From Sulfuricurvum sp. (GTDB lineage: Bacteria; Campylobacterota; Campylobacteria; Campylobacterales; Sulfurimonadaceae): a DNA stretch of 64,000 nt. Shown here in pieces: positions 1-56,770 of this stretch; position 1 is the first letter of the stretch; each line of letters opens with the position of its first letter. Location of the stretch: the NCBI GenBank assembly GCA_028718525.1, contig JAQULP010000011.1, forward strand, positions 1 through 64,000, read 5' to 3'. The notes beneath the pieces were generated by a model. That model was not told where the DNA came from, did not search any database, and saw only the letters and a program-made list of their open reading frames with translations. A program made the position numbers and the translations under genes.

Positions 1-119
1 GACCTAGAAAAATACTCGGATATAAAACACCGCATGAAGTGTTCTTTGCTAAAATTGCACAATGGATTGATGACTCGAAGCTACATTACAAAAATAACGT
101 TGTTGCACTTGAGGGTTGA
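1..119 (+). mobile_element. IS30-family transposase, C-terminal fragment cut by window edge
   Basis: The frame starting at base 3 is open for 38 codons to a TGA at 117-119. It reads PRKILGYKTPHEVFF near its start and ends NNVVALEG. The RPRKxLGYxTPxEVF signature and a final VAL segment are characteristic of the C-terminus of IS30-family DDE transposases. Only the tail is inside the window, so catalytic residues cannot be checked. The last codons (TTGCACTTGAGGGTTGAAT) look like an IS30-type terminal inverted repeat overlapping the gene end. The stop lies only 12 bases from the 3' end of the neighbouring tRNA-Ala gene. Confidence 0.72.
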
Positions 120-131
120 ATGGGCGAAAGA

Positions 132-207
132 TGGTGGACCCTAGCGGGATCGAACCGCTGACCTCGTCGCTGCCAGCGACGCGCTCTCCCAGCTGAGCTA
201 AGGGCCC
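132..207 (-). tRNA. tRNA-Ala (anticodon GGC)
   Basis: The minus strand folds into a complete cloverleaf. The 7-bp acceptor stem is GGGCCCT/AGGGTCC and includes the G3-U70 wobble that identifies tRNA-Ala. The D arm is GCTCAGCTGGGAGAGC, the anticodon stem CGTCG/CGACG has loop CTGGCAG (anticodon GGC), and the T arm is AGCGGTTCGATCCCGCT. Discriminator A and CCA are encoded. An ORF that can be read across this gene is an artefact. Confidence 0.97.
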
Positions 208-229
208 AAAATTAGGTTTTGGAAATGAG

Positions 230-235
230 ATTATA
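230..235 (-). promoter_or_regulatory. -10 box of tRNA-Ala
   Basis: TATAAT on the minus strand, about 22 bases upstream of the tRNA 5' end. This allows a start site around position 223. Confidence 0.6.
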
Positions 236-309
236 CGTCGGAGACTCTTAAATGTCAATGAGCAAAGATAACAGTAAAGTTTTTATCTTTCCGTGTCGAT
301 ATAGTCAGT

Positions 310-1008
310 ATGAAAAAGTTACCTCTAATTTTAAGTGTTGTCGGTATCGTGTTGGGCGCCGAGGAATATACTATCCAAACCATCAGTGCTCATAAAGAGG
401 GGTCCATCACCCCTGCATTTGTAAAAAAAGTTGAAAAAAGTACTCTCCCCTCGACAAAAATGCACGAGGGGAATTGTACGGTAATGACCGTAGGGCATTA
501 TAAGAGTTCCAAAGAGGCACACGGTGATTTGAAAAAGGGGAAGGCGATCAGTCCCGATGCGTTTGTCCGCATGATTAAGCGTCCCATTCCCAAAAGCTGT
601 GATGCCGGTCAGGATGAGGTGCGTTCTGCGGTAACGGTTTCGGAGGAAACCAATACCACAAAAACATTCCCCAAAAAAGAGGGTTCGGCAATGGATGCCT
701 CGAAGCCGAAAATAGACAATGGCGTTATGCAAAGCAATGCAAGCGTTAGCGTTCCAAAAGCGGCCTCGAGCACTAACGTTCCAAAAGCGGCCGCAAGTGT
801 CAGCTCTGTTCCGGTACAGCCGACGGAGATGAAGAGTTCCGAGAGACAGCAAGAGGCTCTCACGTCCCCCTCTTGTGAAAAAAAGACACCGGAAACATTA
901 CGTAACGAGCGCCTTGCGGAGCGGAAAAATGATATCCACGAAGCGATTGAGTATTATAAAAACTCCCCTTACTACACGTTTCGTCCCGTCATTGCTTTGG
1001 TCCGGTAA
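310..1008 (+). CDS. Secreted SPOR-like hypothetical protein with low-complexity linker
   Basis: The 232-residue protein has an N-terminal signal peptide (MKKLPLILSVVGIVLGA, cleavage near residue 17), so it is probably periplasmic. Residues about 18-100 (YTIQTISAHKEGSITPAF... and ...SPDAFVRMIKR) resemble the repeated beta-alpha units of SPOR-type peptidoglycan-binding domains, but the match is by eye. Residues about 100-190 are Ser/Thr/Ala/Lys-rich with a near-duplicated VPKAA unit, and the C-terminus is charged then aromatic (YYKNSPYYTFRPV). The gene has no Shine-Dalgarno; a TATAGT box at 300-305 lies 4 bases from the ATG. Its stop abuts that of the convergent gene. Function unknown. Confidence 0.7.
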   Translation: MKKLPLILSVVGIVLGAEEYTIQTISAHKEGSITPAFVKKVEKSTLPSTKMHEGNCTVMTVGHYKSSKEAHGDLKKGKAISPDAFVRMIKRPIPKSCDAGQDEVRSAVTVSEETNTTKTFPKKEGSAMDASKPKIDNGVMQSNASVSVPKAASSTNVPKAAASVSSVPVQPTEMKSSERQQEALTSPSCEKKTPETLRNERLAERKNDIHEAIEYYKNSPYYTFRPVIALVR

Positions 1009-1431
1009 TTAAGGGGCCTTATTCAAAGCGCTGTAGAGGCAATCCAGATCGATTCGGGTTGTTTTTTTCGCCTCAACGTGGAGTGATTCGAGAAGTTCGG
1101 TACTGTTCTCACCGTTTGAAGGATAACAGACGGCAGAGGAGGGGATGGATGTCGCAAAAAGCTCCTCAATCATCCGTTTAACAATTCCTGTCCCGTAGCG
1201 GTCCGTATAGGGCATAACGAAAAAGTAGTAGTGGTCACAATGGACGATCGAATCGGAAGTACGCAGAAGGCTCGGAAGGTTGGCATCAATCAACGCTTGC
1301 GGTACTTTAGTAAAATCGCAAAACAAGATGGTAAAACTCTCCGAACGATTCTCATCCAACCGATCGGCAATACCGATATTCAGATCGATTAACGATGCAA
1401 AATTATAGAATGAAAACATTACTCCCGCCAT
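1009..1431 (-). CDS. Degenerate GGDEF-like small protein
   Basis: 140 residues, with a good ribosome binding site (TAAGGAG) six bases before the ATG. Residues about 30-95 follow the outline of a GGDEF domain: FTILFCDFTKV, then LLRTSDSIVHCDHYYFFVMPYTD where active enzymes have LRxxDxxxRxGGDEFxxxLPxTD. The GGDEF loop is replaced by CDHYYFF, so no cyclase activity is expected. A binding or scaffold role inside the cell is possible. The gene is transcribed divergently from the large signalling operon starting at 1705, with a 273-bp AT-rich spacer. Fold assignment is by pattern only. Confidence 0.6.
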   Translation of the reverse strand: MAGVMFSFYNFASLIDLNIGIADRLDENRSESFTILFCDFTKVPQALIDANLPSLLRTSDSIVHCDHYYFFVMPYTDRYGTGIVKRMIEELFATSIPSSAVCYPSNGENSTELLESLHVEAKKTTRIDLDCLYSALNKAP

Positions 1432-1590
1432 TTTGACTCCTTAAAAAAATCATACTAAATTAGTATAGCGTTATTTTAGAAAAAACAAAAAGATAACTTC
1501 ATGCTTTTATAATATATTTTAATGCTATATGTCTAAAAATATTCATTAAAACGGCTATTGAAGGTTATATTGCTGATTTTATTCTCTGCC

Positions 1591-1608
1591 AATCCGCGCA
1601 ATCGGATT
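1591..1608. promoter_or_regulatory. Inverted repeat in front of the signalling operon
   Basis: AATCCG and CGGATT arms separated by six bases, in the AT-rich 1432-1704 spacer between the divergent genes. It could be an operator or a leader hairpin. A strong Shine-Dalgarno-like AAGGAGG at 1667-1673 lies 31 bases before the first gene and has no start codon at normal spacing. Confidence 0.25.
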
Positions 1609-1704
1609 TTGATAGACGGATCAAGGTTAAACTAATGAAGATTTAAAACATCAAAGAGTAGACTCTAAGGAGGATATTTCCGAGGATAGTTCTTAAGCAG
1701 GATA

Positions 1705-2817
1705 ATGCAGATGGAAAGCGTAAAAGTTTTGGCGGTTGATGATCAGGAATTCAATCTTGATCTTATTGAATTAGCATTTATGGAGATATCAGAAGTTAAG
1801 ATTACCCGTGCCGTCAACGGACAGGAAGGGCTTAATGTTCTCGAAGCGGATCCCGTTTACCATGTTGTTTTGCTCGATCTGGCAATGCCGGTCATGGATG
1901 GATTTGAAACGCTGTCACGGTTGAAATCCCATCCCTTATGGTCACAAATTCCCGTAATTGTGGTAACCGCGAACGCAGAAGAGAAGCATCGTGCGCTCCG
2001 TTCGGGAGCAAGTGATTTTTTGAGCAAGCCGATTGATGTTGAAGAGCTTAAACTCCGGACGCTGAATTATGCCAAGATCAAAGAGTATCAAGACAATTTG
2101 GCGGATATGAATCACCTTTTGGAAGAGAAAGTTCAACTTCGTACGGCGGAACTCCGGGATGCGCTAGCCTTTGCCAAAAAAACGGAGTATGAAATTTCAG
2201 CCCGTTTAGGGAAAGCATCCGAATACCGTGACCTTGAAACCGGAATGCATATTAAGCGGATGAGCCACTACTCCGCCAAGTTGGCTCAATTGTACGGCTT
2301 GGACCCCGAAGAGGTGGAGCTGGTTCTTTATGCCTCCCCTTTGCATGACATCGGGAAGGTGGGGATTCCTGATAATATTTTGTTGAAACCCGGACGTTTT
2401 AGCCCCGCAGAATTTGAAATCATGAAACTCCATTCGGCCATAGGGGCGAAAATGCTTGAAACCGACGGTAATTATCCGGTTATTGATGCCGGACGCATCA
2501 TTGCGTTGCAGCATCACGAAAAAATCGACGGTACGGGATATCCGAACGGACTCAAAGGGGATGAGATTCATATCCATGCACGGATCGTCTCGGTTGCCGA
2601 TGTCTTCGATGCCTTGAGCTCTGAGAGGGTCTATAAGAAGGCGTTTAGCATTGAAAAAACCATAGAGATCATGAAAGAGGGCTCCGGAACCCATTTTGAG
2701 CCTCAGCTTATTGATCTTCTCGTGCGCAATCTGGATGCATTTCTAGAGATCAAAGAGGCTTTTCCTGATGAGGAAGAGGTCCCTTCCATTATGAATTTAA
2801 TCAACCAGTTGCAATAA
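1705..2817 (+). CDS. Response regulator with HD-GYP domain (RpfG type)
   Basis: 370 residues. An N-terminal receiver (about 6-125) has phospho-acceptor Asp58 in LLDLAMPVMDG and Lys in LSKPID. A short coiled linker leads to an HD-GYP domain (about 170-360) with HD at 214-215 (PLHDIGKVGIP), the HHEKIDGTGYPNG box (GYP at 278-280) and DVFDALSS. HD-GYP proteins of this layout hydrolyse cyclic-di-GMP in the cytoplasm, and phosphorylation is expected to control the output. It is the first gene of a tightly packed eight-gene operon, and its receiver is an obvious target for the receiver-less kinases encoded downstream. The start at ATG 1705 follows a weak AGCAGGA. Confidence 0.93.
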   Translation: MQMESVKVLAVDDQEFNLDLIELAFMEISEVKITRAVNGQEGLNVLEADPVYHVVLLDLAMPVMDGFETLSRLKSHPLWSQIPVIVVTANAEEKHRALRSGASDFLSKPIDVEELKLRTLNYAKIKEYQDNLADMNHLLEEKVQLRTAELRDALAFAKKTEYEISARLGKASEYRDLETGMHIKRMSHYSAKLAQLYGLDPEEVELVLYASPLHDIGKVGIPDNILLKPGRFSPAEFEIMKLHSAIGAKMLETDGNYPVIDAGRIIALQHHEKIDGTGYPNGLKGDEIHIHARIVSVADVFDALSSERVYKKAFSIEKTIEIMKEGSGTHFEPQLIDLLVRNLDAFLEIKEAFPDEEEVPSIMNLINQLQ

Positions 2818-2826
2818 GGAGCAGAC

Positions 2827-3195
2827 GTGCGTATTTTAATAGCTGAAGACGAAGAATACAACCAGATGGTAGTACAGGCGATGATTGAGCTTCTTTATCC
2901 GGATATTGAGATCGAGATGGTCTCAAACGGGGCGGAAGCACTCGATAGACTCAAAAACGGGAGCTATGATCTCGTTTTATCCGATGTCGATATGCCGGTT
3001 ATGAACGGATACGATTTGTTGAGCGAAGCCAAAAAAATAGGAATAGCGATCCCGATGATCTGTGTAACCGCATTTGCTATCAGCGGTGACAAAGAAAAAC
3101 TGCTGATGCACGGATTTGAGCGCTATATCTCAAAACCGATCGATATGGATGATATGAAAGCGGTTTTAGACCCTTATTTATTGGGAGAGCACTAG
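2827..3195 (+). CDS. Single-domain response regulator (CheY-like receiver)
   Basis: 122 residues, all receiver. The acidic pair is AEDEEYN, the phospho-Asp is Asp53 in LSDVDMPVMNG, Thr lies in CVTAFA and Lys in YISKPIDM. There is no output domain, so it probably acts as a phosphate shuttle or through protein contacts. It starts at GTG 2827 behind AAGGAGCAGAC, nine bases after the HD-GYP gene, and ends one base before the hybrid kinase. Placement and lack of output suggest it serves the kinases at 3197, 7341 and 10473. Confidence 0.9.
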   Translation: MRILIAEDEEYNQMVVQAMIELLYPDIEIEMVSNGAEALDRLKNGSYDLVLSDVDMPVMNGYDLLSEAKKIGIAIPMICVTAFAISGDKEKLLMHGFERYISKPIDMDDMKAVLDPYLLGEH

Positions 3196-3196
3196 A

Positions 3197-5527
3197 ATGT
3201 ATCGTCCCCTTACGATAGAAGCCACGATTGAGATGTTCGCTCTTGATTCAGAATGGATGACGCGTCGGGCAGAGGTAGGCAATTATATTCACTCGTTTAG
3301 TGCGATGATTGCGGAGCGTCTTTACAACCATTATTTGCTGAAAGACGGTACTTTTCATAACTTTTTAACTTCTACCGATGTCCCTAGGCTGATGCGTATG
3401 TTCGGGGAATATTTCAGTTCCCTTTTTATCCATCCTATCGACGGAAGAATGTTTGAACGAACCCGACAGATCGGAGATATTCATATCGGGATCGGGATGA
3501 GTTCTGCACAGCTCAGCCGAGGGTTCGATATCGTCAGTGAAATCGTTATCGATTTGGCGGGAGTCAATACCCAGATTCGGGATGATTTGGCGATCATCTT
3601 GAAAATGATCCGGATTTCCGAGTTGATAATGCGTGAGAGTTATCGGGAACTTTATCTTGAGTATAACGAAGAGATGAAAAAAGAGAATGAAGTCTTAGGG
3701 CTTTTTGACAAGCTCTTTACTTCCCTCAACATTCATAAACAAAGCCAAAAAAAAGTGATCCATTTTTACTCGGAACACCAAAACATACACCGTTCGATCA
3801 ACGAAAAAATGGGGCTTTTCCATGATGAAATATCGTGCCCTTTCTCCCTTCTGATTGAAGAATTGGTTCCCCAAAAAGAGCTTTTGGAAAGTTTGGGGAT
3901 TGATCTGGATGAAATCCATTCGCTCCATCACCGCTACCATGAAAAATTGGATGAATTGCTGCAGAGTGACGGAGAGGAGGTTGATACCCTTTTCCAGGAG
4001 GTAGAATCAATCTCAAAAGAGCTTTATACGGTTATCGACACCCCTCTTAGCGATATTTCGACGACATCGTTTTTAGGGGTCCATTCGGGGATAGAGTTTT
4101 TACAGGCATGTACCCATTCGATCCACGACCGGGGGATGGGAGACGAGATTCATGGAGGGAAAATTTATGAACATCTGTACCAGATTCTTGAAAGAGCGCT
4201 TGGTTGGTGCATTGAAGAGATCTATGTAGGGAGAGAAACACCCAGTGAAATGATCGCGTACGATATCAATCGGGATATTACGCTGAAGGATGAACGCATC
4301 CATATTGCAGTGAAAATTAAAACGATACCGAATAAGACCTACATGATCGAGATTATTAAGATTTTATTGGAAGTAGTCAAGCAAAATCTTAAAAACAAAG
4401 AGCGTGAAAATGCACTGATACAGCTGGTCGATCAAGTGGAGAGGGCGAGTCAATCGAAAGATATGTTTTTGGCGAATATGTCTCATGAATTGCGTACCCC
4501 GCTGAATGCGATTATCGGATTTTCGCAAATTTTGGGGATGAACCAGACCCTTCCCCAGAATTTGAAACCATATATTGAAAAAATCGGGATCGCCGGCAAT
4601 AATCTTCTGACATTGGTGAATACCATCCTCGATTTTGCCAAGCTGGAAGCGGGAAAACTTACCTTTAAGCCCGAGGTAACGATTATTTCGGGATTGCTTC
4701 GCGATGTAGCTTCGATCATTGAGCCGATAGCGCTGAAAAAAAACATCCATTTCCGTTACAGTGAAATGATATCTCTGGGGCTCTATTTGGATCGTCAGTT
4801 GATTCATCAGGTACTTTTGAATTTATTGAGTAATGCCGTCAAGTTTACCCCGGAGGGGGGCGAAGTGATTATGTCGGTTGATTTTGATGAAGAGAAGAGG
4901 GTTTACCGTTTCGGTATATGCGATACCGGTATCGGGATTGAAGCCAAAGATATTGTGACGTTATTTGACCCGTTTACCCAAGTTGAAAACCCGTTCCAAA
5001 AATCCTCAAAAGGGACCGGGCTCGGATTGGCGATATCGAAACGGATTGTCGAAGATCTCCATGGGGGACGGTTGTGGGTTGAGAGCGAACCCGGTTCCGG
5101 TGCCTGTTTTTACTTTACCATCCCCGTTTCTCAAACCCAAAATACGCTGGAACGGTTTGTCGCTCCAAACGAGTATGCCAAACGGATGTTAATCGTTGAA
5201 GATGCTCCGGAATACCAAAAAATGTTGATCGATCGCTTATCGGAATCGTATCATTTGGTTGTGACCAATTCGGTCAACAAGGCAAAAGAGCTTTTAGAGA
5301 AAGAACAGTACGATTTTATTGTTTTAGATTTCTTCCTTGTGGACGGAATCAGTTCCGAGGTGCTTCAATTTATGGAACAAAACCGGGTGGAAATACCGGT
5401 GATTATCATCTCGGCCGAGGATGACAGTAAACTGATTTCGCATCTTCCGAATACGGAGAGCGTTGAGGGCATTTTCAATAAAGCCAATATTCAAGAGATA
5501 TGCGATTATTTAACCAAACGTATTTAA
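3197..5527 (+). CDS. Globin-coupled hybrid sensor histidine kinase
   Basis: 776 residues, no membrane segment. Residues about 10-160 resemble the globin-sensor/protoglobin domain: the segment ERTRQIGDIHIGIGMSSAQL matches the family's RxxxIGxxHxxIGL box, with His96 as candidate proximal heme ligand. Residues about 175-400 form a linker with no recognised domain. HisKA follows with His430 in MSHELRTPLNAIIGF, then HATPase_c with N box (LLNLLSNAVKFTPEGG), DTGIGI and [11 protein letters not shown]-terminal receiver has Asp711 in IVLDFFLVDG. Expected role: O2, CO or redox sensing by heme, with internal phosphorelay. Heme binding is inferred from one motif. Confidence 0.85.
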   Translation: MYRPLTIEATIEMFALDSEWMTRRAEVGNYIHSFSAMIAERLYNHYLLKDGTFHNFLTSTDVPRLMRMFGEYFSSLFIHPIDGRMFERTRQIGDIHIGIGMSSAQLSRGFDIVSEIVIDLAGVNTQIRDDLAIILKMIRISELIMRESYRELYLEYNEEMKKENEVLGLFDKLFTSLNIHKQSQKKVIHFYSEHQNIHRSINEKMGLFHDEISCPFSLLIEELVPQKELLESLGIDLDEIHSLHHRYHEKLDELLQSDGEEVDTLFQEVESISKELYTVIDTPLSDISTTSFLGVHSGIEFLQACTHSIHDRGMGDEIHGGKIYEHLYQILERALGWCIEEIYVGRETPSEMIAYDINRDITLKDERIHIAVKIKTIPNKTYMIEIIKILLEVVKQNLKNKERENALIQLVDQVERASQSKDMFLANMSHELRTPLNAIIGFSQILGMNQTLPQNLKPYIEKIGIAGNNLLTLVNTILDFAKLEAGKLTFKPEVTIISGLLRDVASIIEPIALKKNIHFRYSEMISLGLYLDRQLIHQVLLNLLSNAVKFTPEGGEVIMSVDFDEEKRVYRFGICDTGIGIEAKDIVTLFDPFTQVENPFQKSSKGTGLGLAISKRIVEDLHGGRLWVESEPGSGACFYFTIPVSQTQNTLERFVAPNEYAKRMLIVEDAPEYQKMLIDRLSESYHLVVTNSVNKAKELLEKEQYDFIVLDFFLVDGISSEVLQFMEQNRVEIPVIIISAEDDSKLISHLPNTESVEGIFNKANIQEICDYLTKRI

Positions 5528-5539
5528 CAGGAGATAACC

Positions 5540-6328
5540 ATGATAGATGAAATAAAAAGTTTGCCCCCGCTTCCGGCCTCGGTGGTCCGAATCCAAGAGC
5601 TGTGTATGAACAACGATACGAATATTGATGAACTTTCTCAGGTCATTGCGGGTGATCCGATGCTAAGTGCCAATATCTTAAAATCGGTCAATTCACCGTT
5701 ATACGGTATGAGTAAAGAGATATCGTCTATCCCTCAGGCGGTAATGCTTTTTGGGATTTCGATGATTCGCGGGTTTGCCGCAGCGAACGCGATTAAAAAA
5801 ACCGTTCCGATCGATTTGAGCCCGTATGGGAAAACGATTGATGATTTAACAAAGATATCGACTCTGCAGATGGCGTTGGTGCGTGAATGGTATCGTAATG
5901 TCGATAAATCGATGTTACCGTTATTGCTCAGCAGCGCATTTTTGATGGAACTGGGGAAATTGATTGCTGCCATCAAAGTGATCGCATCCTCAGAAGCGGA
6001 AAAATTTGCCGTAGAGGTATCGGAAGGGAAAGCTCTGGAGGAGATCGAACGGTGTTATTTGGGGATGAGCAGTTACGAAATTACGGCAATGATGTTTGCT
6101 CATTGGAATTTTGAAGATGCTTTGGTCGAAGTGTTGCGTAATATTTCGAATCCTGCAACCACAAATCGCTATGCACAGGTATTAAGCATTATTACCAGAG
6201 CGGTAACCCTCCGTGATGGACTGAGTGAAGCCGGGATTGCTTATGCCCTTGAGAAAATTGATGAGCTTGGGTTGAAACGGGGTCCCTTTGAAGAGGCGAT
6301 TATGTCCATAAAAGCGGCGCAAAAATAG
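5540..6328 (+). CDS. HDOD domain protein
   Basis: 262 residues, essentially a single HDOD domain. The start reads SLPPLPASVVRIQELCMN, followed by DPMLSANILKSVNSPLYG and IPQAVMLFGISMIRGF, which are the conserved HDOD blocks. HDOD is an HD-related fold that usually lacks the metal-binding residues and works as a signalling adaptor in c-di-GMP, chemotaxis or stress circuits. The ATG at 5540 follows an AGGAGATAACC site, 12 bases after the hybrid kinase. It lies between the kinase and the peroxidase of the same operon, suggesting a regulatory partner for the HD-GYP protein. Exact function unknown. Confidence 0.88.
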   Translation: MIDEIKSLPPLPASVVRIQELCMNNDTNIDELSQVIAGDPMLSANILKSVNSPLYGMSKEISSIPQAVMLFGISMIRGFAAANAIKKTVPIDLSPYGKTIDDLTKISTLQMALVREWYRNVDKSMLPLLLSSAFLMELGKLIAAIKVIASSEAEKFAVEVSEGKALEEIERCYLGMSSYEITAMMFAHWNFEDALVEVLRNISNPATTNRYAQVLSIITRAVTLRDGLSEAGIAYALEKIDELGLKRGPFEEAIMSIKAAQK

Positions 6329-6362
6329 ACAACGTATCGAGATATGCAATGAAGGGCGGACG

Positions 6363-7328
6363 ATGAAGAGAGATAGTATCAAAACGGATGGGTTTTTCCG
6401 AATGGGCTTGGCGATCGGTTTTTCAACACTTATGTCGCTTACTCCGGTTTTGGCTGAAGATCTGATCCGTCCGATTCCACCTCAAAATACGGTGCTCTCT
6501 CCAAAAGAGGCTCTCGGAAAACAGCTTTTTATGGATCCGCGTCTTTCAAAAGACGGTACGGTTGCTTGTGTATCCTGTCATAACCTTGCTTATGGGGGAG
6601 CTGACTCTGAAGCCGTTTCGACGGGAGTCGGGGGGAAGAAAGGGACCGTCAATTCACCGACGGTCTTTAATGCTGCAAACAATCTTGCCCAGTTTTGGGA
6701 TGGGAGAGCCAAAGATCTTAAAGCACAGGCAAGCGGTCCGATTATGAACCCGGTTGAAATGGCAAATACCCCCGAAACGGTGATAAACGTTCTCTCCAAA
6801 GACCCTCACTATCAAAAACGTTTTGGGGAAATTTATCCTAAAACGGGGCTAACAGTCGATACGATTACGGATGCCATTGCCGCATTTGAAAAGAAACTCA
6901 TGACCCCTAATGCCCGTTTTGATCGCTACCTCAAAGGCGATAGCAAAATGTTAAGCCCAAAAGAGAAAGAGGGGTATGCCCTTTTTAAAAACTATGGGTG
7001 TATCTCATGTCACAATGGTATGAATATCGGCGGAAACATGTATCAACGCTTTGGTGTCTTTATGCAGTATAAAGATCGTCACAATACCCTGGGCCGTTTT
7101 AGCGTTACCGGAAAAGAGGAAGACAAGTATTTTTTCAAAGTCCCGTCATTACGAAATATCGATAAAACAGCCCCCTACTTTCATGACGGCAGTGCCAAAA
7201 CGTTAGAAGAGGCGGTTCAAAAAATGGGTTATTATCAGCTTGGGCGTAAACTCTCCCGTGAGGATATCGACAAAATAACCGCTTTTTTGCGGACGCTTAG
7301 CGGCGAACTTCCCGATCATGTTAAATAA
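6363..7328 (+). CDS. Periplasmic di-heme cytochrome c peroxidase
   Basis: 321 residues with an N-terminal signal peptide (hydrophobic about 13-31, cleavage near VLAED). Two c-type heme sites are present: CVSCH at residues 69-73 and CISCH at 213-217. Other blocks match the bacterial CcP/MauG family: LGKQLFMDPRLSKDGTVAC, TVNSPTVFN, FWDGRA, VPSLRNIDKTAPYFHDGS. The family reduces H2O2 to water in the periplasm using electrons from cytochrome c. The gene starts 34 bases after the HDOD gene with AAGGGCGG upstream and is followed 12 bases later by a kinase gene. A peroxidase inside a run of signalling genes is unusual. Confidence 0.93.
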   Translation: MKRDSIKTDGFFRMGLAIGFSTLMSLTPVLAEDLIRPIPPQNTVLSPKEALGKQLFMDPRLSKDGTVACVSCHNLAYGGADSEAVSTGVGGKKGTVNSPTVFNAANNLAQFWDGRAKDLKAQASGPIMNPVEMANTPETVINVLSKDPHYQKRFGEIYPKTGLTVDTITDAIAAFEKKLMTPNARFDRYLKGDSKMLSPKEKEGYALFKNYGCISCHNGMNIGGNMYQRFGVFMQYKDRHNTLGRFSVTGKEEDKYFFKVPSLRNIDKTAPYFHDGSAKTLEEAVQKMGYYQLGRKLSREDIDKITAFLRTLSGELPDHVK

Positions 7329-7340
7329 CGAGGTGATGCC

Positions 7341-9329
7341 ATGAAAACAGAACGGATACGCATCCTCGCATTGATCGGTTTTTTCGTAGCGGTTATCCTG
7401 AGTGCTTTTATCAGTTTGTTCCGAAGTATTGAATATGAACAAAAAATTTACAATCTCACCGGAGCACTGCACAATCTGCGTATGCAAAATGAGATTATAA
7501 ATACGCAAATTACCCACGATTTCAAAAAACAAAATTATGATGAGGTACAGCAGAAGTGGAATGTTTTTGATGAAAACTGGCGAGCTTTTCGACAAAAGAC
7601 CTTTAGCGATATCCATAATGAACCTAAGATTGTTGAACAAATCGAGATACTTCAAAAAGCGATAGACTCTAAATATCAGCGAATTCTCCATTTTGAATCG
7701 GATAAAGCGGTATTAAACAACTCCCTCTTTTTTCTTTTGGACCTGAAACATGATATTCGGCAGCAGAATCGAAAAGAGACCGAGTTAATTGCCGATAAAC
7801 TGGGAGAACTTTTAAACAATGTGTTTTATTACAGCGTCAATCAAACGATTTTGGAAGAGGAGATTGCCGAACTTGCCGGTTTGCTTCAAACCCATTCGGC
7901 AACCCTTAGTGAAACGGATATTTTATTGGGGCATTTAAGGATGCTTGCGACTAAAAATCAAGAGATCACGACAACATTGAAAGGAATCAATGAGTTACAA
8001 GTGGCTCAACAATTTGAGTCGCTCGAGTCGGCTTTGATGGAAACCGTCAGCCGTGAGCGATCTTATTATCGGGTTGTCAATACGCTTATTGCCCTTTTTG
8101 TCGTGATAACCCTGATCGGATTTGTCAATACCTTTTTAAAAACGTATCGGGATAAGTACAAAATCCTCAAACTTCAAGAGGAAAATGATCAAAAACATTT
8201 GGAGGTTGTTCAAAAAATGCAGCTTCTGAATGAATATAAACGGGCACTGGATGAGAGCTCAATCGTCTCCAAAACCGATTTAAACGGGATTATTACCTAT
8301 GTCAATGAGCGGTTTTGTACTATTAGCGGCTATACGAAAGAGGAGCTGATCGGAGAACCGCATAATATTATTCGCCATCCCGATTTCCCGTCCTCGGTGT
8401 TTAAGGAGTTGTGGGGAGCGCTTCATAACCGGCAGGTTTTTCACGGCATCATCCGCAACCGGAAAAAGAGCGGTGAGGACTATTTTGTCGATTCAACCGT
8501 CGTTCCGATTGTGGATGAATATGATAACCCTATCGAATACATAGCGATCCGTAATGATGTTACGGAACTTATCCATGCAAAAGACAAGGCCATTGCCGCA
8601 GAACAGGCAAAAAGCGCTTTTTTTGCCAACATGAGTCATGAACTCCGGACTCCGCTGAATGCGATTATCGGTTTTTCGCAAATTTTAATGGCCAAATCCG
8701 ATACTCCTCCTGCGGTAAAAGTGTTTGTCGATAAAATCCATATAGCGGGAAAAAATCTTCTTGAGATGGTGAATACCATCCTGGACTTTTCAAAAATGGA
8801 ATCAGGGATGATGGAGGTCACGATCGATTCTTTCGAGATGCAGGATTTGATAAAAGAGGTCAAAATTTTAGTTGAATCGATGGCAGAGAAGAAAAATATT
8901 ACCCTTTTGATGGATTTGCCGGGGAGTATTTCACTCGATGCCGATCGGCAATTACTCAAACAGGTGCTAGTGAATCTGTTGAGCAACGCCATCAAATTCT
9001 CACCCGAATCCGGGTCGATTGTCTTGGAATTTCGCAAGGAAGAGGGGTGGAACATCGTGGGTGTCCGTGATTTCGGCCTGGGGATCAATCAAGATCAGAT
9101 TGAGACGTTATTTAATCCGTTTACCCAAATCCGCGAGCACCAAAAAGGGGCCGTCAAAGGGACAGGGTTAGGGCTGGCTATTGTGAAAAAAATTATTGAC
9201 CTTCATAATGGTAAGATTTGGGTAGAAAGTACCGTAGGGGAGGGGAGCTGTTTTTACATTGCCCTGCCGGATGGTAAATATAGAGTACATGCGCAAGAAC
9301 CGAGCGTTGAGAAACAAATCCGAACATAA
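7341..9329 (+). CDS. Membrane sensor kinase: DAHL-like periplasmic region, PAS, HisKA, HATPase
   Basis: 662 residues. A transmembrane segment at about 8-28 and a second near 250-270 flank a helical periplasmic region of about 220 residues. Its FESDKAVLNNSLFFLLDL box resembles the DAHL sensor family. A cytoplasmic coiled coil follows, then an Aer-type PAS (about 300-410; ITYVNERFCTISGYTKEELIG, IRHPDFP), HisKA with His433 in MSHELRTPLNAIIGF, and HATPase_c ([16 protein letters not shown]). There is no receiver, so phosphotransfer to the stand-alone receivers at 1705 or 2827 is likely. The gene lies directly after the peroxidase, which would share its periplasmic space. Confidence 0.88.
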   Translation: MKTERIRILALIGFFVAVILSAFISLFRSIEYEQKIYNLTGALHNLRMQNEIINTQITHDFKKQNYDEVQQKWNVFDENWRAFRQKTFSDIHNEPKIVEQIEILQKAIDSKYQRILHFESDKAVLNNSLFFLLDLKHDIRQQNRKETELIADKLGELLNNVFYYSVNQTILEEEIAELAGLLQTHSATLSETDILLGHLRMLATKNQEITTTLKGINELQVAQQFESLESALMETVSRERSYYRVVNTLIALFVVITLIGFVNTFLKTYRDKYKILKLQEENDQKHLEVVQKMQLLNEYKRALDESSIVSKTDLNGIITYVNERFCTISGYTKEELIGEPHNIIRHPDFPSSVFKELWGALHNRQVFHGIIRNRKKSGEDYFVDSTVVPIVDEYDNPIEYIAIRNDVTELIHAKDKAIAAEQAKSAFFANMSHELRTPLNAIIGFSQILMAKSDTPPAVKVFVDKIHIAGKNLLEMVNTILDFSKMESGMMEVTIDSFEMQDLIKEVKILVESMAEKKNITLLMDLPGSISLDADRQLLKQVLVNLLSNAIKFSPESGSIVLEFRKEEGWNIVGVRDFGLGINQDQIETLFNPFTQIREHQKGAVKGTGLGLAIVKKIIDLHNGKIWVESTVGEGSCFYIALPDGKYRVHAQEPSVEKQIRT

Positions 9330-9338
9330 AGGTAAATC

Positions 9339-10463
9339 ATGAAAAGCGAACAAATTCGGTGGAATGAAAAATCAGGATGGAGTGATTATGATGCACAGAG
9401 TGCTGGGGAGAGAGATTTAGTTTTGGTCTTTTTTGATCACCCCGCATGTCAAAATGCGGAGTGGTTCGAAACACTGAAGACGATGTACCCTAACGCCGTT
9501 ATTGCCGGGGCAAGCAGCTCGGGGAGTATTCTCGATACCGTTATCAGCGATGAGGATGTCGTCGTAACGGCGATTACCTTTGAACGTTCGAAGGTACAGT
9601 GTATCTCCAAAAAGATTGCCGATTATGATGATGTTAATCAACTCGGCGCGGCGTTAGGCGAAGCGTTGCTTGGGGAGTCGCTGAAGCATGTTTTAATCCT
9701 ATCGGATGGATTGGCGGTCAATGGAAGCGATCTTGCCCGGGGGTTTTCTCGGGTGCTTCCTGAAGGAATCACGATCACCGGCGGTTTAGCGGGGGATGGG
9801 ACCCGTTTTACGGCGAGTTACGTAATGGCACAAGGAGCGGCGCAAAGCGGTATGGTTGCCGCAATCGGATTTTACGGCGAGTCATTGCAGGCAAAAAGCG
9901 GATGTTACGCCGGATGGGACGAATTCGGTTCCGAACGGGTTATTACCCGATCAGAAGCCAATGTCCTCTATGAAATTGATAATCAGCCTGCATTGGAATT
10001 GTATAAGAGTTATTTGGGGGAATTTTCGGCCGATTTGCCCGGAAGCGGCCTGCGATTTCCTATGAATGTTCGAAAAAATACGGAATCGAGTCCTGTAATA
10101 CGGACACTGCTATCAGTAGATGAGACGGAGCAGAGTTTGACGTTTGCCGGAGATATGCCGCAGGGGTATCTTTGCCGATTAATGAAAACGGATATGGATT
10201 TGTTGATTGAACATGCCGGATTGGCCGCCGAAGCATCGAGACTCGATCAAGGAGAAGAATTTTTGGTTATTGCCGTCAGTTGTGTCGGCAGACGTCTGGT
10301 ATTGGGACAATTATGCGAAGAGGAGCTGGAAATTATCCGTGAAACGCTTGGGGAAAAAGCGGTAATAACCGGATTTTATTCGTATGGCGAATTATCGGAA
10401 AAAGGTGAGAGCCGCTGTACGTTGCATAATCAGACCATGACCCTTGTAAGCATTTACGAATAA
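9339..10463 (+). CDS. FIST (FIST_N + FIST_C) sensory protein
   Basis: 374 residues. FIST_N spans about 25-220 (NAVIAGASSSGSI, GGLAGDGTRF, AIGFYG) and FIST_C about 225-365 (YEIDNQPALELYKSYLGE, and the tail CVGRRLVLGQ ... ITGFYSYGELSEKG ... LHNQTMTLVSIYE). FIST proteins are predicted sensors of small ligands, possibly amino acids, and often sit beside kinases, chemoreceptors or cyclic-di-GMP enzymes. No signal peptide or membrane span is seen. It starts nine bases after one kinase and ends nine bases before the next, so it probably serves as their input subunit. A close paralogue is encoded at 55026. Confidence 0.92.
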   Translation: MKSEQIRWNEKSGWSDYDAQSAGERDLVLVFFDHPACQNAEWFETLKTMYPNAVIAGASSSGSILDTVISDEDVVVTAITFERSKVQCISKKIADYDDVNQLGAALGEALLGESLKHVLILSDGLAVNGSDLARGFSRVLPEGITITGGLAGDGTRFTASYVMAQGAAQSGMVAAIGFYGESLQAKSGCYAGWDEFGSERVITRSEANVLYEIDNQPALELYKSYLGEFSADLPGSGLRFPMNVRKNTESSPVIRTLLSVDETEQSLTFAGDMPQGYLCRLMKTDMDLLIEHAGLAAEASRLDQGEEFLVIAVSCVGRRLVLGQLCEEELEIIRETLGEKAVITGFYSYGELSEKGESRCTLHNQTMTLVSIYE

Positions 10464-10472
10464 GGAAAACGT

Positions 10473-12131
10473 GTGGCAAATTCATCCTATCATCGGTTAT
10501 TGGTGAGGCAGATTCGCCGATTCCTGAGACCGGAATTGATCGATGAAATAGCCCCTTTTCTGGAGAGTATCAGTACGGCCTACGATGAATCGGAGAAAGA
10601 GCGGCGTTTTTTGGAAAGGACGCTGGATGTCAACTCCAAAGAGCTGGAAGCCGCCAACCTTTCACTCAAGCGGCAGCATGAAGAGATGCACAATTCGATT
10701 CTTAATGCCCTGAATATCGGTCTCTTTGCCGTTAATCTGGAAGGGAATGTCATCTTTGCCAACGAAAGCGCCTGCTATATCCTTGGACGGAATGAAGCCG
10801 ATCTGGTCGGGCAGAGTATGAACGTCTTTATTGAGGATAATGACTTTGCCGACATTATTGAGTACGGTGTCGGAATCGGACGTAAAGAGGGTGAAACGAT
10901 TCTGGAAGACCGGTACGGAATGAGTATACCCATCCGCTATTCGGCCTATCCGATTTTGGAATCCGGCCTTCCCAAAGGGACCGTGTTCTCTTTTTCCGAT
11001 ATTTCGATGGAGCAAAAGCGTCAGGAACTGATTGATTTGCAGAAACTTGCCCTTGAATCGAGCGCAACGATGATGCTGATAGCCGACAGCGAGGGGGTTA
11101 TCCAATACGCAAATCAAGAATACCTCCGTTTTAGCGGTTATGCAGAAGAAGAGATCATCGGTGAAGGTTCCCGTTTAATTGCCAATGATGAACTTAATAA
11201 CCCCGAGGTAATTCAAGAGTGCTGGGAGAAGATCAAGCACGGGGAAATGTGGGAAGGGGAGCTCCTTGCACAGATAAAATCGGGAGATTTTTATTTTGAA
11301 GAGCTGACAATCACCCCGTTGATAGAGCGGGGAAAAGTGACCAATATCGTTGCGGTAAAAAAGAATATCAGTGAGAGGATACGATTCCAGGAGGAACTCA
11401 AATCGGCTCGTGATGAGGCAATAGCGGCGATGAACGAGGCGAATGAGGCCAACCGTGCAAAAGATATCTTTTTATCGAATATGTCACACGAACTCCGGAC
11501 TCCGCTGAATGCGATTATCGGATTTTCCCAAATTTTGATGGCCAAAAAAGATACCCCCGATTCAACGAAAATGTTTATCGAAAAGATCCAGATATCGGGT
11601 AAAAATCTCCTCTCTTTGGTCAATACCATCCTCGATTTCTCGAAAATTGAAGCGGGAAAAATGGAAATCGATAAAAAAACGTTCGTGATGAGTGAACTGT
11701 TGGCAGAGGTCAAGGTGCTGATTGAACCGATGGCCGATAAAAAGAGGTTGCGTTGCGCTGCCCATATTCCAGAAGAGATCAGTGTGCATGCCGACCGGCA
11801 GCTGATCAAACAGGTGCTTGTCAATCTTTTGAGCAATGCAATTAAATTTTCGCCTGAAGAAGAAGAGATCCAGATCCGTTACACCCATGAGGAAGATCGG
11901 GAAATATTCGGAATATGTGATCACGGGCACGGAATTCAAACGGATAAGATAGCGACCCTTTTTGATCCGTTTACCCAGATTCGTGAACACCAAAACAGTT
12001 CGATGAAGGGGACGGGGCTAGGTCTTAGCATAGTCAAAAAAATTATTGAGCTTCATGACGGGAAGATTTGGGTCGAGAGTGTCGTCGGAGAGGGGAGCTG
12101 TTTTTATTTCAGCTTGCCGTGCAGTGGTTAA
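10473..12131 (+). CDS. Cytoplasmic PAS-PAS histidine kinase
   Basis: 552 residues, no membrane span. An N-terminal helical region (1-70) is followed by PAS1 (about 75-185; NALNIGLFAVNLEGNVIFANESA) and PAS2 (about 195-310; SSATMMLIADSEGVIQYANQEY). HisKA has His339 in MSHELRTPLNAIIGF, and HATPase_c has LLSNAIKFSPEEE, DHGHGI and GTGLGLSIV. It starts at GTG 10473 behind AAGGAAAAC, next to the FIST gene. Like the 7341 kinase it lacks a receiver. It closes the operon, and its stop overlaps the stop of the convergent gene at 12128 by four bases. Confidence 0.92.
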   Translation: MANSSYHRLLVRQIRRFLRPELIDEIAPFLESISTAYDESEKERRFLERTLDVNSKELEAANLSLKRQHEEMHNSILNALNIGLFAVNLEGNVIFANESACYILGRNEADLVGQSMNVFIEDNDFADIIEYGVGIGRKEGETILEDRYGMSIPIRYSAYPILESGLPKGTVFSFSDISMEQKRQELIDLQKLALESSATMMLIADSEGVIQYANQEYLRFSGYAEEEIIGEGSRLIANDELNNPEVIQECWEKIKHGEMWEGELLAQIKSGDFYFEELTITPLIERGKVTNIVAVKKNISERIRFQEELKSARDEAIAAMNEANEANRAKDIFLSNMSHELRTPLNAIIGFSQILMAKKDTPDSTKMFIEKIQISGKNLLSLVNTILDFSKIEAGKMEIDKKTFVMSELLAEVKVLIEPMADKKRLRCAAHIPEEISVHADRQLIKQVLVNLLSNAIKFSPEEEEIQIRYTHEEDREIFGICDHGHGIQTDKIATLFDPFTQIREHQNSSMKGTGLGLSIVKKIIELHDGKIWVESVVGEGSCFYFSLPCSG

Positions 12132-12817
12132 ATCGGTAAATCGAAAAAGTAAGCCAATCCGTAATAGACACTGTAAAGGCCGTAAATGAGGATGGCCAAA
12201 GCTGCAAGCCGGTTCATCGTCTGTCGGAATGCAATCTCTTTGAAAAAGCTTACCGACTGCCCGAGCGCAAGGAGCGTCGGGACGGTTGCCAGACCGAAAG
12301 CCGCCATGATCAAGCCGCCATCAAGGACGGAAGCCGATGCCGCCGCTTTGGCCGCGAAAAAAAAGACAAACCCGCACGGGAAAAATCCGTTCATTACCCC
12401 CAGAGCGAAAAAGCTTCCGATCGTTTTACTTTTGATAAGGCGGGAGAAGAGGGTTTTAAAGAGGGGATTGGTCGAGAATGAACGTTCGAGCAGATGAATC
12501 AGTTTCGAGAGACCGAACATCCCCAATGCGGTAATGATCATTACGATACCGGCGAAGATAAAAAGTGCCCCGTGCATCTGCATGCTGAGGGCGAATAGCG
12601 AACCGATCCCTCCGAAAAACATCCCCAGAAGAATATAGGAGCTGACCCGTCCGACGTTATAGGCACCGTGTCGAAACAGTTGGGCGCTTTGACTCATGGA
12701 AGTATCAATTTTGGTGGAGCTGTAAGCGACAATAAACCCCCCGCACATCCCGATGCAGTGGCCGAAACTTCCGGCAAAAGCGATTGAGATGATGACCCAC
12801 CATTCGATACCATGCAT
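12128..12817 (-). CDS. TauE/SafE-like (UreH/DsbD_2) membrane protein
   Basis: 229 residues from the ATG at 12817, which has AAAGGTG five bases upstream; a TTG start eight codons earlier has no such site. About six hydrophobic segments are visible. The first contains FAGSFGHCIGMCGGFIVAY, the GHCxGMCGG motif typical of the UreH/DsbD_2-type sulfite exporter TauE/SafE family. In this phylum such genes often accompany copper handling or cbb3 oxidase maturation. Here it is divergent from a periplasmic metal-binding protein, so a role in metal transfer across the inner membrane is inferred. No transport substrate can be read from sequence. Confidence 0.85.
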   Translation of the reverse strand: MHGIEWWVIISIAFAGSFGHCIGMCGGFIVAYSSTKIDTSMSQSAQLFRHGAYNVGRVSSYILLGMFFGGIGSLFALSMQMHGALFIFAGIVMIITALGMFGLSKLIHLLERSFSTNPLFKTLFSRLIKSKTIGSFFALGVMNGFFPCGFVFFFAAKAAASASVLDGGLIMAAFGLATVPTLLALGQSVSFFKEIAFRQTMNRLAALAILIYGLYSVYYGLAYFFDLPI

Positions 12818-12867
12818 ATGAACACCTTTTACATTGAGCAATAGAGTATAGAAATTTTGTTACAGCA

Positions 12868-12883
12868 GTGTTAAACTTAACAC
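12868..12883. promoter_or_regulatory. Inverted repeat between divergent metal genes
   Basis: GTGTTAA and TTAACAC arms separated by AC, in the spacer between the TauE/SafE-like gene and the HMA gene. Its position suits an operator serving both promoters. No regulator is encoded beside it. Confidence 0.35.
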
Positions 12884-12936
12884 AAATTTAACAGTTCTAT
12901 GAAACAATAGCATGAAATCATTTAAAGGATTCGTGA

Positions 12937-13200
12937 ATGAAAAGATTTTTACTGGTTTTGGTTGCTTTGGCTGCGGCTGCAAGTGCCGACCAATTGGTGA
13001 ATTTAAAAATCGACGGGATGATGTGCCCGGCATGTGTGAAAAACGTTAAGGGCTCTTTGAATGAAGTAAAAGGGGTTAAAGAGACCAGTGTTTATCTTAA
13101 AGAGGGGAAAGCCGAGGTAAAAGCCGCTGAGGGGACCAAACCCGAAAGTATGTGCGATGCGGTTAAAAAAGCGGGATACGGCTGCTCGGTAGCCAAATAG
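12937..13200 (+). CDS. Periplasmic heavy-metal-associated (HMA) protein, MerP/CopZ-like
   Basis: 87 residues. A clear signal peptide (about 1-17, MKRFLLVLVALAAAASA) is followed by one HMA domain with the metal-binding loop IDGMMCPACVKNV (MxCxxC) and the second conserved block VYLKEGKAEVKA. A C-terminal AGYGCSV adds a third Cys. The family binds Cu(I), Hg(II) or similar soft metals through the paired cysteines. Export makes it a periplasmic binder rather than a cytoplasmic chaperone. AAAGGATTCGTGA precedes the ATG. A perfect hairpin follows. Confidence 0.92.
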   Translation: MKRFLLVLVALAAAASADQLVNLKIDGMMCPACVKNVKGSLNEVKGVKETSVYLKEGKAEVKAAEGTKPESMCDAVKKAGYGCSVAK

Positions 13201-13209
13201 AGGCTTCGG

Positions 13210-13233
13210 GTGAAAGATAACCCTATCTTTCAC
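13210..13233. terminator. Hairpin between convergent genes
   Basis: Perfect 10-bp stem GTGAAAGATA/TATCTTTCAC with a 4-base loop, between the HMA gene and the convergent PP-loop gene. There is no real T tract, so termination is inferred from position and stem strength. Confidence 0.55.
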
Positions 13234-13240
13234 TTAGGCC

Positions 13241-14212
13241 TTAGATGAAATATTTCTGCGCATCGCTGCGGCTGAGGTCGCTATGCACCCTGACCGCTGT
13301 TTCTTCAAACTGTAACGTTTGTTCCCCCTCGAATCCTGCTTTACAATAAGCCAATATCAGTTTTGCCGCTAATGTCGTATCTTTTTCGCTGGCATTTCGG
13401 GAGAGCATCGCATGCGGCCCTACCAGTTCGGTACGGATATGGATATATTTGGGATTTTCAATCCCTTCCAATACGGCATTATCCTCCGCATTACGCCCGA
13501 TGATGAGCTTCGCCCCATCGGGAAGACGAAGCTGACGGCCGTATTTGAGTGTCGGAATATCCGCAACGGTAAACGTATCGTGGGCAATGAAATCACGGAT
13601 TTTATTGGAGAAGTTTTCATCGGTGAGGAGACATCCCCCTCCCGGTGCCTCATAATCTTTGAGTCCGAACGATTCGGCCAGCTCCATTTGGCGCTCGCGG
13701 TTACGTCCGTTGATGTTTTCAAGCTTTTCACGGTCCACCCACCCCTTTGTTTCGGGAATGGTCGGGGTGAGAGATTTCGCACTGAGGGGACGGAGGAGAA
13801 GCCCTTCGCAATCGCTTAGATTGAGAACTTTTTGGAGCGATTCGCTGTTTTGACTCATGGGGCGTTGCCCTAAGACTTCACCGCTGATAAGAAAACTCGC
13901 CCCCCACTCGTCCATAAGCCGTTTGGCAACTTCGAACATTTTTGCATGGCAGTCGATGCAGGGGTTAAAGTTCTTGCCGTAGCCGTATTTAGGGGTAAAG
14001 AGGACTTCACGGATATATTCGTCACGGATGTCGACGCTGCGAAACTCGGCCCCGATTTGTCGGCACATATTATTCATATGTTCAAGCCGGTCTTTGGTCG
14101 AACCAAATCCGGTGTTGATGTTGCAGGCGATCACTTCGATCCCTTGATCAATGATAAGTTTCGCCGCGAGGGTAGAGTCGAGTCCGCCGCTGAATAAAGC
14201 GATTGCTTTCAT
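13241..14212 (-). CDS. PP-loop ATPase of MnmA/ThiI type fused to NFACT-R-like domain
   Basis: 323 residues. The N-terminal PP-loop is SGGLDSTLAAKL (8-19), an adenylating P-loop used by tRNA-thiolating enzymes. FNPCIDCHAKMF supplies a CxxC pair typical of the MnmA/ThiI-like branch, and EAPGGGCLL gives a further Cys. Residues about 215-290 (TLKYGRQLRLPDGAKLIIGRNAEDN ... IHIRTELVGPH, split here) look like the NFACT-R/DUF814 domain seen in RQC-type proteins. The likely role is sulfur transfer to tRNA, with the C-terminal domain contacting RNA. The specific modified base is not deducible. It is not MnmA itself: the domain order and length differ. Confidence 0.8.
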   Translation of the reverse strand: MKAIALFSGGLDSTLAAKLIIDQGIEVIACNINTGFGSTKDRLEHMNNMCRQIGAEFRSVDIRDEYIREVLFTPKYGYGKNFNPCIDCHAKMFEVAKRLMDEWGASFLISGEVLGQRPMSQNSESLQKVLNLSDCEGLLLRPLSAKSLTPTIPETKGWVDREKLENINGRNRERQMELAESFGLKDYEAPGGGCLLTDENFSNKIRDFIAHDTFTVADIPTLKYGRQLRLPDGAKLIIGRNAEDNAVLEGIENPKYIHIRTELVGPHAMLSRNASEKDTTLAAKLILAYCKAGFEGEQTLQFEETAVRVHSDLSRSDAQKYFI

Positions 14213-56156: not shown

Positions 56157-56371
56157 TTTTATTTAAAATATAAATAGTAAAATCCGTATCGCACTATTTT
56201 TCTCACATCCATCCGTTTGAGGGTCATTGCAACAGACGGTTACGTTTGGTGAGCTCTATTTAAGGATATTAACAGGCTCTTAACACCTTATATACACTTA
56301 TCATGATAAAATGGTTTATATTTATGCATATTTTTAACCTACGATAAAACATACAATGGAGATGAGGTAAT

Positions 56372-56752
56372 ATGGAACAAACGCTGCAAGATACTGATTT
56401 CTTGGTATCGCAAACCGACTCAAAAGGGATTATCCTTTTTGCCAATGAAGATTTCTGCAAAATCGCCGGATATACGCTTGAGGAAATGATCGGTAAGCCG
56501 CACAATATTGTCCGTCATCCGGATATGCCCAAAGCCGCCTTTAAAGATTTATGGGACACGGTAAAAAGTGGGAAAGTGTGGAAAGGGTACGTCAAAAACG
56601 CAACGAAAAACGGTGGATTTTATTGGGTTTTTGCAACGGTTTATCCGAATATTGCTTGCGGTGACGGTGGCGGCGGATATATGTCATGCCGTCGTAAGGC
56701 GTCACCGGCCGAAATTCAAAAAGCCGAAGCGCTTTACAAAACATTGCGTTAA
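56372..56752 (+). CDS. PAS protein, CetB/Aer-like energy-taxis sensor
   Basis: 126 residues, one PAS domain. LVSQTDSKGIILFANEDFCK, IAGYTLEEMIGKPHNIVRHP, DMPKAAFKDLWDTVKSGKVW and KGYVKNATKNGGFYWVFATV are the Aer/CetB pattern, in which the PAS fold binds FAD. The last 20 residues are helical. In Campylobacter, CetB senses redox or energy state and signals through the separate receptor CetA. The next gene is a chemoreceptor 18 bases downstream, so a bipartite receptor is likely. Confidence 0.9.
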   Translation: MEQTLQDTDFLVSQTDSKGIILFANEDFCKIAGYTLEEMIGKPHNIVRHPDMPKAAFKDLWDTVKSGKVWKGYVKNATKNGGFYWVFATVYPNIACGDGGGGYMSCRRKASPAEIQKAEALYKTLR

Positions 56753-56770
56753 GAGAAGGATAGGTAAAAG

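Follow-up and report, generated by a model that had tools for sequence, protein, structure and literature searches.

In Burkholderia pseudomallei, the FIST protein NosP binds the histidine kinase NosK and controls its autophosphorylation in a nitric oxide (NO)-dependent manner, and NosK phosphorylates the response regulator NosR; all three are products of the nosRPK operon (PMC12570481). NosK is described in the available text as soluble, with about 130 N-terminal residues that hold no recognised sensory domain (PMC12570481). For Pseudomonas, a figure legend refers to the kinase dimer and the FIST protein as modelled together by AlphaFold 3 (PMC12997753). In this study, we examine an eight-gene operon (g1 to g8) in a 64,000-nucleotide stretch of DNA from Sulfuricurvum sp. 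(contig JAQULP010000011.1, positions 1 to 64,000), hereafter the window, whose host genome is a draft of 31 contigs that is 83% complete. An initial annotation, made from the sequence alone, knew of no described system with this content and order. That nothing similar is described is not supported: the combination of FIST protein, kinase and REC-HD-GYP protein matches NosP-NosK-NosR, as in Burkholderia nosRPK and in the NosP-NahK-NarR system of Legionella. We conclude, with a probability of roughly 0.6, that the locus is an expanded operon of the nosRPK type.

The block consists of eight open reading frames (ORFs) on the forward strand, separated by 9, 1, 12, 34, 12, 9 and 9 nucleotides (nt). 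Pfam assigned REC and HD_5 to g1; REC to g2; Protoglobin, HisKA, HATPase_c and REC to g3; HDOD to g4; CCP_MauG to g5; DAHL, PAS and histidine kinase (HK) domains to g6; FIST and FIST_C to g7; and two PAS domains and an HK to g8. ORF coordinates and domains thus agree with the initial annotation, which listed eight same-strand genes of these families spaced 1 to 34 nt apart. Promoter-like sites over positions 1430-12400 numbered 14, versus 19.7 +/- 4.8 in shuffled sequences, and terminator-like sites 11, versus 10.6 +/- 3.2. Because both counts are at chance level, no split of the block is visible, and internal promoters or terminators dividing it, which the annotation had named as a finding that would refute its proposal, were rejected.

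The NosR-like gene g1 (1705..2817, +) encodes a response regulator with REC and HD-GYP domains, for which the best NCBIfam family is NosR (NF053512; 162.3 bits against a curated cut-off of 400, next family 83.7). The NosP-like gene g7 (9339..10463, +) encodes a stand-alone FIST-FIST_C protein with NosP as its sole NCBIfam match (NF041558; 62.5 bits against a curated cut-off of 450). The suffix "-like" is used because both scores fall below these cut-offs. The HD-GYP motifs HDIGK and HHEKIDGTGYP are intact in g1, as are HDIGK and HHExxDGxGYP in 10/10 g1 orthologs checked, and these motifs point to cyclic-di-GMP (c-di-GMP) as the predicted output, as had been proposed. Gene g2 (2827..3195, +) encodes a stand-alone receiver (Pfam REC) that adjoins NosR in the core loci described below and would serve as a second phosphoryl target or sink. 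The earlier observation of kinases without receivers beside two receivers was also confirmed.

The same-genus set comprised 10 other genomes from a 121-genome draw of the family, of which nine gave loci long enough to read (the tenth, L042, is a 3.8-kb contig). Counterparts of g7 are 71-80% identical in these 10 genomes. In all nine long loci the genes for REC-HD-GYP, REC, globin hybrid kinase, FIST and g8-type kinase occur in one run; the HDOD gene, g4 in the window (5540..6328, +; Pfam), belongs to the operon in eight of them, and an extra kinase, other than g6, follows g8 in three (L034, L037, L038). The NosR, NosP and NosK genes are contiguous in L044, L048, L052, L053, L058, L059 and L063. 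A globin query matched 28/121 family genomes, six by short weak matches alone, and flanks were examined for 9 of the 12 other matching genomes outside the genus; a 298-genome draw of the phylum gave 13 matching genomes, from which six loci were taken. Flanks were left out for the matches in G018, G040, G151, G153, G158 and G328, and one locus, L233, begins 469 bases from a contig end.

Outside the genus, NosR (58-63% identical) and the lone REC (46-51%) lie in the same run in 11/11 readable globin-kinase loci, with HDOD in six of the 11. The companion kinase of these runs varies in its sensor, which is NIT in L205 and L209, Tll0287-like in L203, L206 and L211, and PAS in L204 and L210; in L207 and L208 the companion is a FIST fused to a g8-like kinase core (fusions in genomes G063 and G052). 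The L232 run has a PAS kinase, a solute-binding protein gene and an additional kinase, and in the L234 run the FIST is a protein of its own beside a PAS kinase. Companion kinase cores are 46-55% identical to that of g8 in L203-L211, 52% in L232 and 40% in L234. Synteny in relatives, which the initial annotation had put forward for checking, is well beyond chance (9/9 same-genus loci and 11/11 outside the genus). Judged from sequence, NosR, REC and the globin hybrid kinase, with or without HDOD, form the conserved core together with a companion kinase that has an exchanged sensor (NosP with NosK, FIST fusion, NIT, Tll0287-like or PAS).

Gene g8 (10473..12131, +), which adjoins g7 with a gap of 9 nt, encodes a NosK/NahK-like kinase in which a FIST-partner segment precedes PAS-PAS-HK, as judged by Pfam, hydropathy and a segment search. 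No membrane segment was found in g8, no 19-residue stretch exceeding a hydropathy of 1.6. In four of the nine long same-genus loci the g8 counterpart is without both PAS domains (L034:13124-14104, L036:9090-10061, L040:5936-6916 and L041:13151-14125) and consists of the partner segment and kinase core, a layout similar to that of B. pseudomallei NosK. The segment (10473..10670, +; search match 10482-10670) spans about 61 residues, approximately residues 5-66 of g8, and recurs beside distant FISTs in many phyla. Pfam gave no match over the segment in g8 or in the ten segment-led proteins scanned.

The association of the segment with FIST proteins was counted in three samples. A six-frame recount of the window and loci L034-L133 gave 103 FIST matches, one of them doubled (the L036 contig is also that of L054), and for 97 of them the segment lies downstream of the FIST and on its strand, at a distance of up to 250 nt; sampling on FIST similarity inflates this share. 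In L071 the segment lies in the gene just upstream of the FIST. The five FISTs without it are the window's second FIST (55026), those of L086, L092 and L132 (at the locus end), and a FIST in a 749-residue frame of L048. Of the segment matches, 98/99 adjoin a FIST (the exception is in L132), and this scarcity of stray matches is not affected by the sampling. The recount supersedes an earlier tally on called ORFs, in which 86/88 downstream genes and 7 matches among 1,312 other ORFs had been found. The 121 family genomes hold 39 segment matches, 33 of them directly behind a FIST, or 33/35 when contig-edge cases are excluded (G023, G026 and G060, 139-531 bases from the contig start, and G065); G038 and G012 have a match with no nearby FIST. 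In 36 whole genomes chosen for holding a FIST, 38/39 segment matches adjoin one: 29 of 30 lie directly behind the FIST, the thirtieth (L257) being the L071 case, and eight of the nine others have a FIST. A weak match in L270 has no adjoining FIST.

Among the proteins led by the segment are kinases, GGDEF-EAL enzymes (L047, L060, L072) and SpoIIE phosphatases (L075, L090). From this distribution we lean, if only slightly, towards the view that the segment is a NosP coupling module. A broader proposal is more tentative: a transferable N-terminal module might plug NosP/FIST sensors into kinases, GGDEF-EAL enzymes and SpoIIE proteins across phyla, with the NosR-REC-globin/CZB kinase core acting as a socket for swapped sensor kinases in relatives of Sulfuricurvum. 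The SpoIIE-type phosphatases stand right behind a FIST (L075:11142-12128 and L090:11137-12141), and their best NCBIfam family is SiaA, below its cut-off.

The three kinases of the operon are closely related. Their cores are 64% (g6-g8), 54% (g3-g8) and 47% (g3-g6) identical, and 50% core identity is reached by 6/300 other kinase pairs. Among the genome's other kinases, C2_111023 comes closest (47-50% identical to each of the three); it shares the phospho-acceptor stretch HELRTPLNAIIGFSQIL without a difference with g3, g6 and g8, and the stretch occurs in 0/24 other genome kinases aligned. In a reduced tree from which 11 long-branch kinases were dropped, g3, g6, g8, the extra operon kinases and C2_111023 form one clade with support 100/97 against 15 others. 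In L034 the extra kinase groups as sister with the g8 of the same locus, with support 100/99 in a 51-row tree and 100/98 in the reduced tree. The trees exclude three distant nosK sequences without HELRTP, and 13 of the genome's 41 HisKA matches were not used. The closeness of the cores fits convergence on common receivers, yet it would also be expected from duplication. C2_111023 itself (L212:6553-7935, -; G000:C2:111023) lies outside the operon, belongs to the same core subfamily and is a possible further input to the same receivers.

Gene g3 (3197..5527, +) encodes a hybrid kinase that proceeds from a protoglobin through a CZB-like site (H180, C214, H244, H248) to HisKA, HATPase and REC. The Pfam Protoglobin match is weak (31.7 bits versus a cut-off of 25, E 1.8e-7). 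A model of residues 1-410 has the globin sensor of AfGcHK, an oxygen-sensing kinase, as its top fold match (probability 1.00, E 7.6e-4), and the proximal His, H96, is invariant in 10/10 same-genus sequences; match and model together favor the globin sensor that the initial annotation had placed on this predicted hybrid kinase. In the stretch that links the globin to the kinase, H180, C214, H244 and H248 do not vary across the 21/21 rows of an alignment, or 20 distinct sequences since the window is present twice (also as L136), ten of the rows being 22-29% identical to the window. The spacing of these residues is constant in every row (C to H 30, H to H 4), and in a 13-sequence set the invariant columns are solely L12, H19, C53, H83 and H87. 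CZB proteins have been divided into seven architecture groups, none of which, in the available text, includes a histidine kinase (PMC8262984). Pfam CZB, at E up to 1, was matched by 6/13 homologs (best 2.7e-4), and in a separate scan 4/6 sequences scored 17.6-20.2 bits versus a cut-off of 29.4. The CZB motif Gly is retained in 5/10 distant homologs and the Trp in none of the rows. We use the name divergent CZB-like site because the window is without the motif Gly and Trp and its own segment drew no Pfam CZB match; as a sequence assignment, g3 carries such a site.

Two genes of the window operon stand apart. Gene g5 (6363..7328, +) encodes a di-heme CcP-type peroxidase with two CXXCH motifs and CCP_MauG, and g6 (7341..9329, +) a membrane kinase with a DAHL sensor, a PAS domain and a NosK-like core; both are insertions in the operon seen only here. 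Hydrophobic segments 8-26 and 248-266 of g6 flank the DAHL sensor. CcP-type peroxidases are exported proteins; hydropathy gave no strong hydrophobic segment in g5. Neither a CcP nor a DAHL kinase gene is in the operon in any of the nine long same-genus loci. The DAHL sensor part occurs in 1/41 genus genomes, that of the window, and CcP relatives occur in 40/41, with a best full-length match of 52% identity. Given their absence from 9/9 same-genus operons and the rarity of the DAHL part, g5 and g6 appear to have been inserted locally. A place for peroxide in the core circuit, as the initial annotation had it, was rejected since, among the loci examined, CcP and DAHL kinase occur in the operon only in the window genome. 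It is very unlikely that the peroxidase serves as a sensing subunit of the DAHL kinase. In the related L232 operon, a solute-binding protein gene (SBP_bac_11, 10233-11030) beside a kinase gene (8293-10197) parallels the CcP and DAHL kinase pair; this is only an analogy for the periplasmic input that we infer for CcP and DAHL kinase.

Gene content, synteny, motifs and kinase relatedness are observed here, whereas the control of a kinase by a NosP-type protein and an output of the NosR type are carried over from the described families. Beyond these we infer NO or heme as the signal, docking by the segment and convergence of the kinases. In the mechanism we propose, the NosP-like g7 would bind heme and sense NO (or heme) and would set the activity of g8 by docking on its N-terminal segment of about 61 residues. 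In parallel, g3 would sense O2 or another heme ligand, and zinc or oxidants through its CZB-like site. In the window genome, the membrane kinase g6 beside CcP g5 would add a periplasmic input. The kinases g3, g6 and g8 would converge on g1 and the lone receiver g2, and phosphorylated g1 would alter c-di-GMP hydrolysis, such that electron-acceptor and stress cues would set attachment versus motility. The HDOD protein may be an accessory or a second output.

Several observations weigh against this proposal. The NosR and NosP scores lie far below their curated cut-offs, and a sequence search for a FIST structure found none. NosR, NosP and NosK genes are not contiguous in the window, where five genes separate g1 from g7, and the window's second FIST is without the partner segment. 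The operon is patchy, its globin kinase occurring in 10 same-genus genomes of the 121-genome draw, the window's own included. In L235, L236 and L237, outside the genus, a globin-like protein without a kinase core and without the operon counts against its breadth. In the best tree the operon kinases do not form a clade unless C2_111023 is included, although a clade without it is not rejected (p-AU 0.241). The model of g3 residues 1-410 is of low confidence (mean predicted local distance difference test score, pLDDT, 58.9; 60.0 for a model of the upstream gene), and the heme His is replaced in 5/10 distant homologs, which retain the four CZB-like residues. The CX(L/F)GXW(Y/L) motif is absent from the window, which reads CPFSLLI, with Ser at the near-universal Gly and no Trp; Pfam CZB had no match in the window's g3 segment, and no CZB came up when PDB profiles were searched with the CZB-like segment. 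A search for NirS in the 83%-complete genome was negative. Finally, extra receiver-like ORFs follow the run in L034 (18531-19991) and L055 (13076-13975), and an HD-GYP-like ORF adjoins it in L203 and L206, so that further outputs are possible.

Alternative explanations concern the signal, the coupling and the wiring. FIST domains can bind amino acids, and g7 might sense heme, an amino acid or another small molecule and not NO, with the wiring unchanged, which we consider rather unlikely. The low NosP score of g7 and the negative search for NirS in the incomplete genome would fit this, as would a review, in its available text, by which FIST may bind NO and/or heme and the FIST of Vibrio cholerae CdpA is heme-responsive; B. 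thailandensis NosP has also been termed heme-responsive. NosP homologs of Legionella and B. pseudomallei are, however, described as NO-responsive, and NIT, by Pfam a domain for nitrate and nitrite sensing, substitutes for FIST in two related operons. Docking by the g8 segment has its own competitor, a generic helical spacer on which FIST does not dock. The segment looks helical by eye, and its alignment has just 3 columns, L10, Q13 and Y37 in the alignment's numbering, invariant in 25 diverse sequences. Against a spacer stand the FISTs that adjoin 98/99, 38/39 and 33/35 segment matches (the first two samples having been picked for FIST) and the FIST-kinase fusions of L207 and L208, in which the segment gives only sub-threshold partial scores. 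A mere spacer is thus unlikely.

The wiring could be different altogether. The initial annotation saw an oxygen, redox and peroxide circuit, which would be centred on CcP and the globin kinase and leave no part for NO. Globin and CcP genes are indeed present, and the Tll0287-like sensors of related operons would fit redox sensing. The nine same-genus operons, however, are all without CcP and DAHL kinase and all retain FIST, and NIT or FIST-kinase fusions fill the slot in other genera, which makes such a circuit improbable. Little chance is likewise given to insulated two-component units on a shared transcript, with cores alike by recent duplication and CcP serving plain detoxification. Duplication does happen, the L034 extra kinase being sister to its own g8; receiver-like ORFs lie behind the run in L034 and L055; and the CcP relatives of 40/41 genus genomes are found in none of the nine operons examined. 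Against insulation, the kinases vary among the readable core loci, whose sole constant members are NosR and REC. An expanded nosRPK-type operon with converging kinases is the reading that we retain.

Other features of the region were also recorded. Upstream of g1, a probable promoter region (1625..1672, +) was marked by eye from an upstream alignment of the window and eight relatives, as a loosely conserved block with AAACTAAT, TTTAAAA and a AAGAGTACACTC-like element. Farther upstream, a divergent gene (1009-1431, -) of 140 residues without a Pfam match is retained in relatives; its low-confidence model (pLDDT 60.0) has a GGDEF domain as top fold match (probability 0.96, E 0.014), and it possibly encodes a degenerate GGDEF-like protein. 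The operon is followed by a convergent gene (12128-12841, -; DsbD_2) that shares 4 nt with the end of g8. An Rfam scan of 1-13300 found nothing except a tRNA at 135-207. Behind the window's second stand-alone FIST lie genes for a PAS protein of 126 residues and for a chemoreceptor that carries an MCP signalling domain (55026-57877, +); judging by this arrangement, the FIST may couple sensing to taxis. FISTs of similar score elsewhere (G074:C14, G078:C55) also drew no segment match.

A search of the open-access literature found no description of the window operon or of the FIST-partner segment, which is not proof of absence. A segment that adjoins FIST across many phyla and precedes outputs of three kinds would make the coupling of NosP to its kinase directly testable. 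As a natural series in which the sensors on one predicted c-di-GMP output are exchanged, the operon could show which cues are equivalent for these bacteria. A further addition is g3, a histidine kinase whose globin is followed by a CZB-like site.

Several known systems are close to the window operon. In nosRPK of B. pseudomallei, a single operon likewise encodes a REC-HD-GYP protein, a stand-alone FIST and a kinase that is soluble (PMC12570481). As described there, nosRPK has three genes and its NosR has a degenerate HD-GYP (HG-GTP) (PMC12570481), whereas the g1 motifs are intact; the window operon also has an extra receiver, a globin hybrid kinase, HDOD, and CcP with DAHL kinase. Legionella pneumophila NosP-NahK-NarR shares with the window a FIST sensor, partner kinase and c-di-GMP regulator in one operon (PMC8846402, PMC11237717). 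NarR is described as both cyclase and phosphodiesterase, and the available text names no globin kinase, HDOD or CcP for that operon (PMC8846402, PMC11237717). Pseudomonas NosP-NahK also has a FIST gene beside a kinase, which is a hybrid in Pseudomonas, and its signal goes to HptB (PMC12997753). AfGcHK (PMC8697598), like g3, carries a globin sensor on a histidine kinase, and g3 differs in having the CZB-like site between globin and kinase plus a C-terminal receiver. The CZB proteins DgcZ and TlpD (PMC8262984) share the 3His/1Cys pattern with g3, in which the motif Gly and Trp are not retained.

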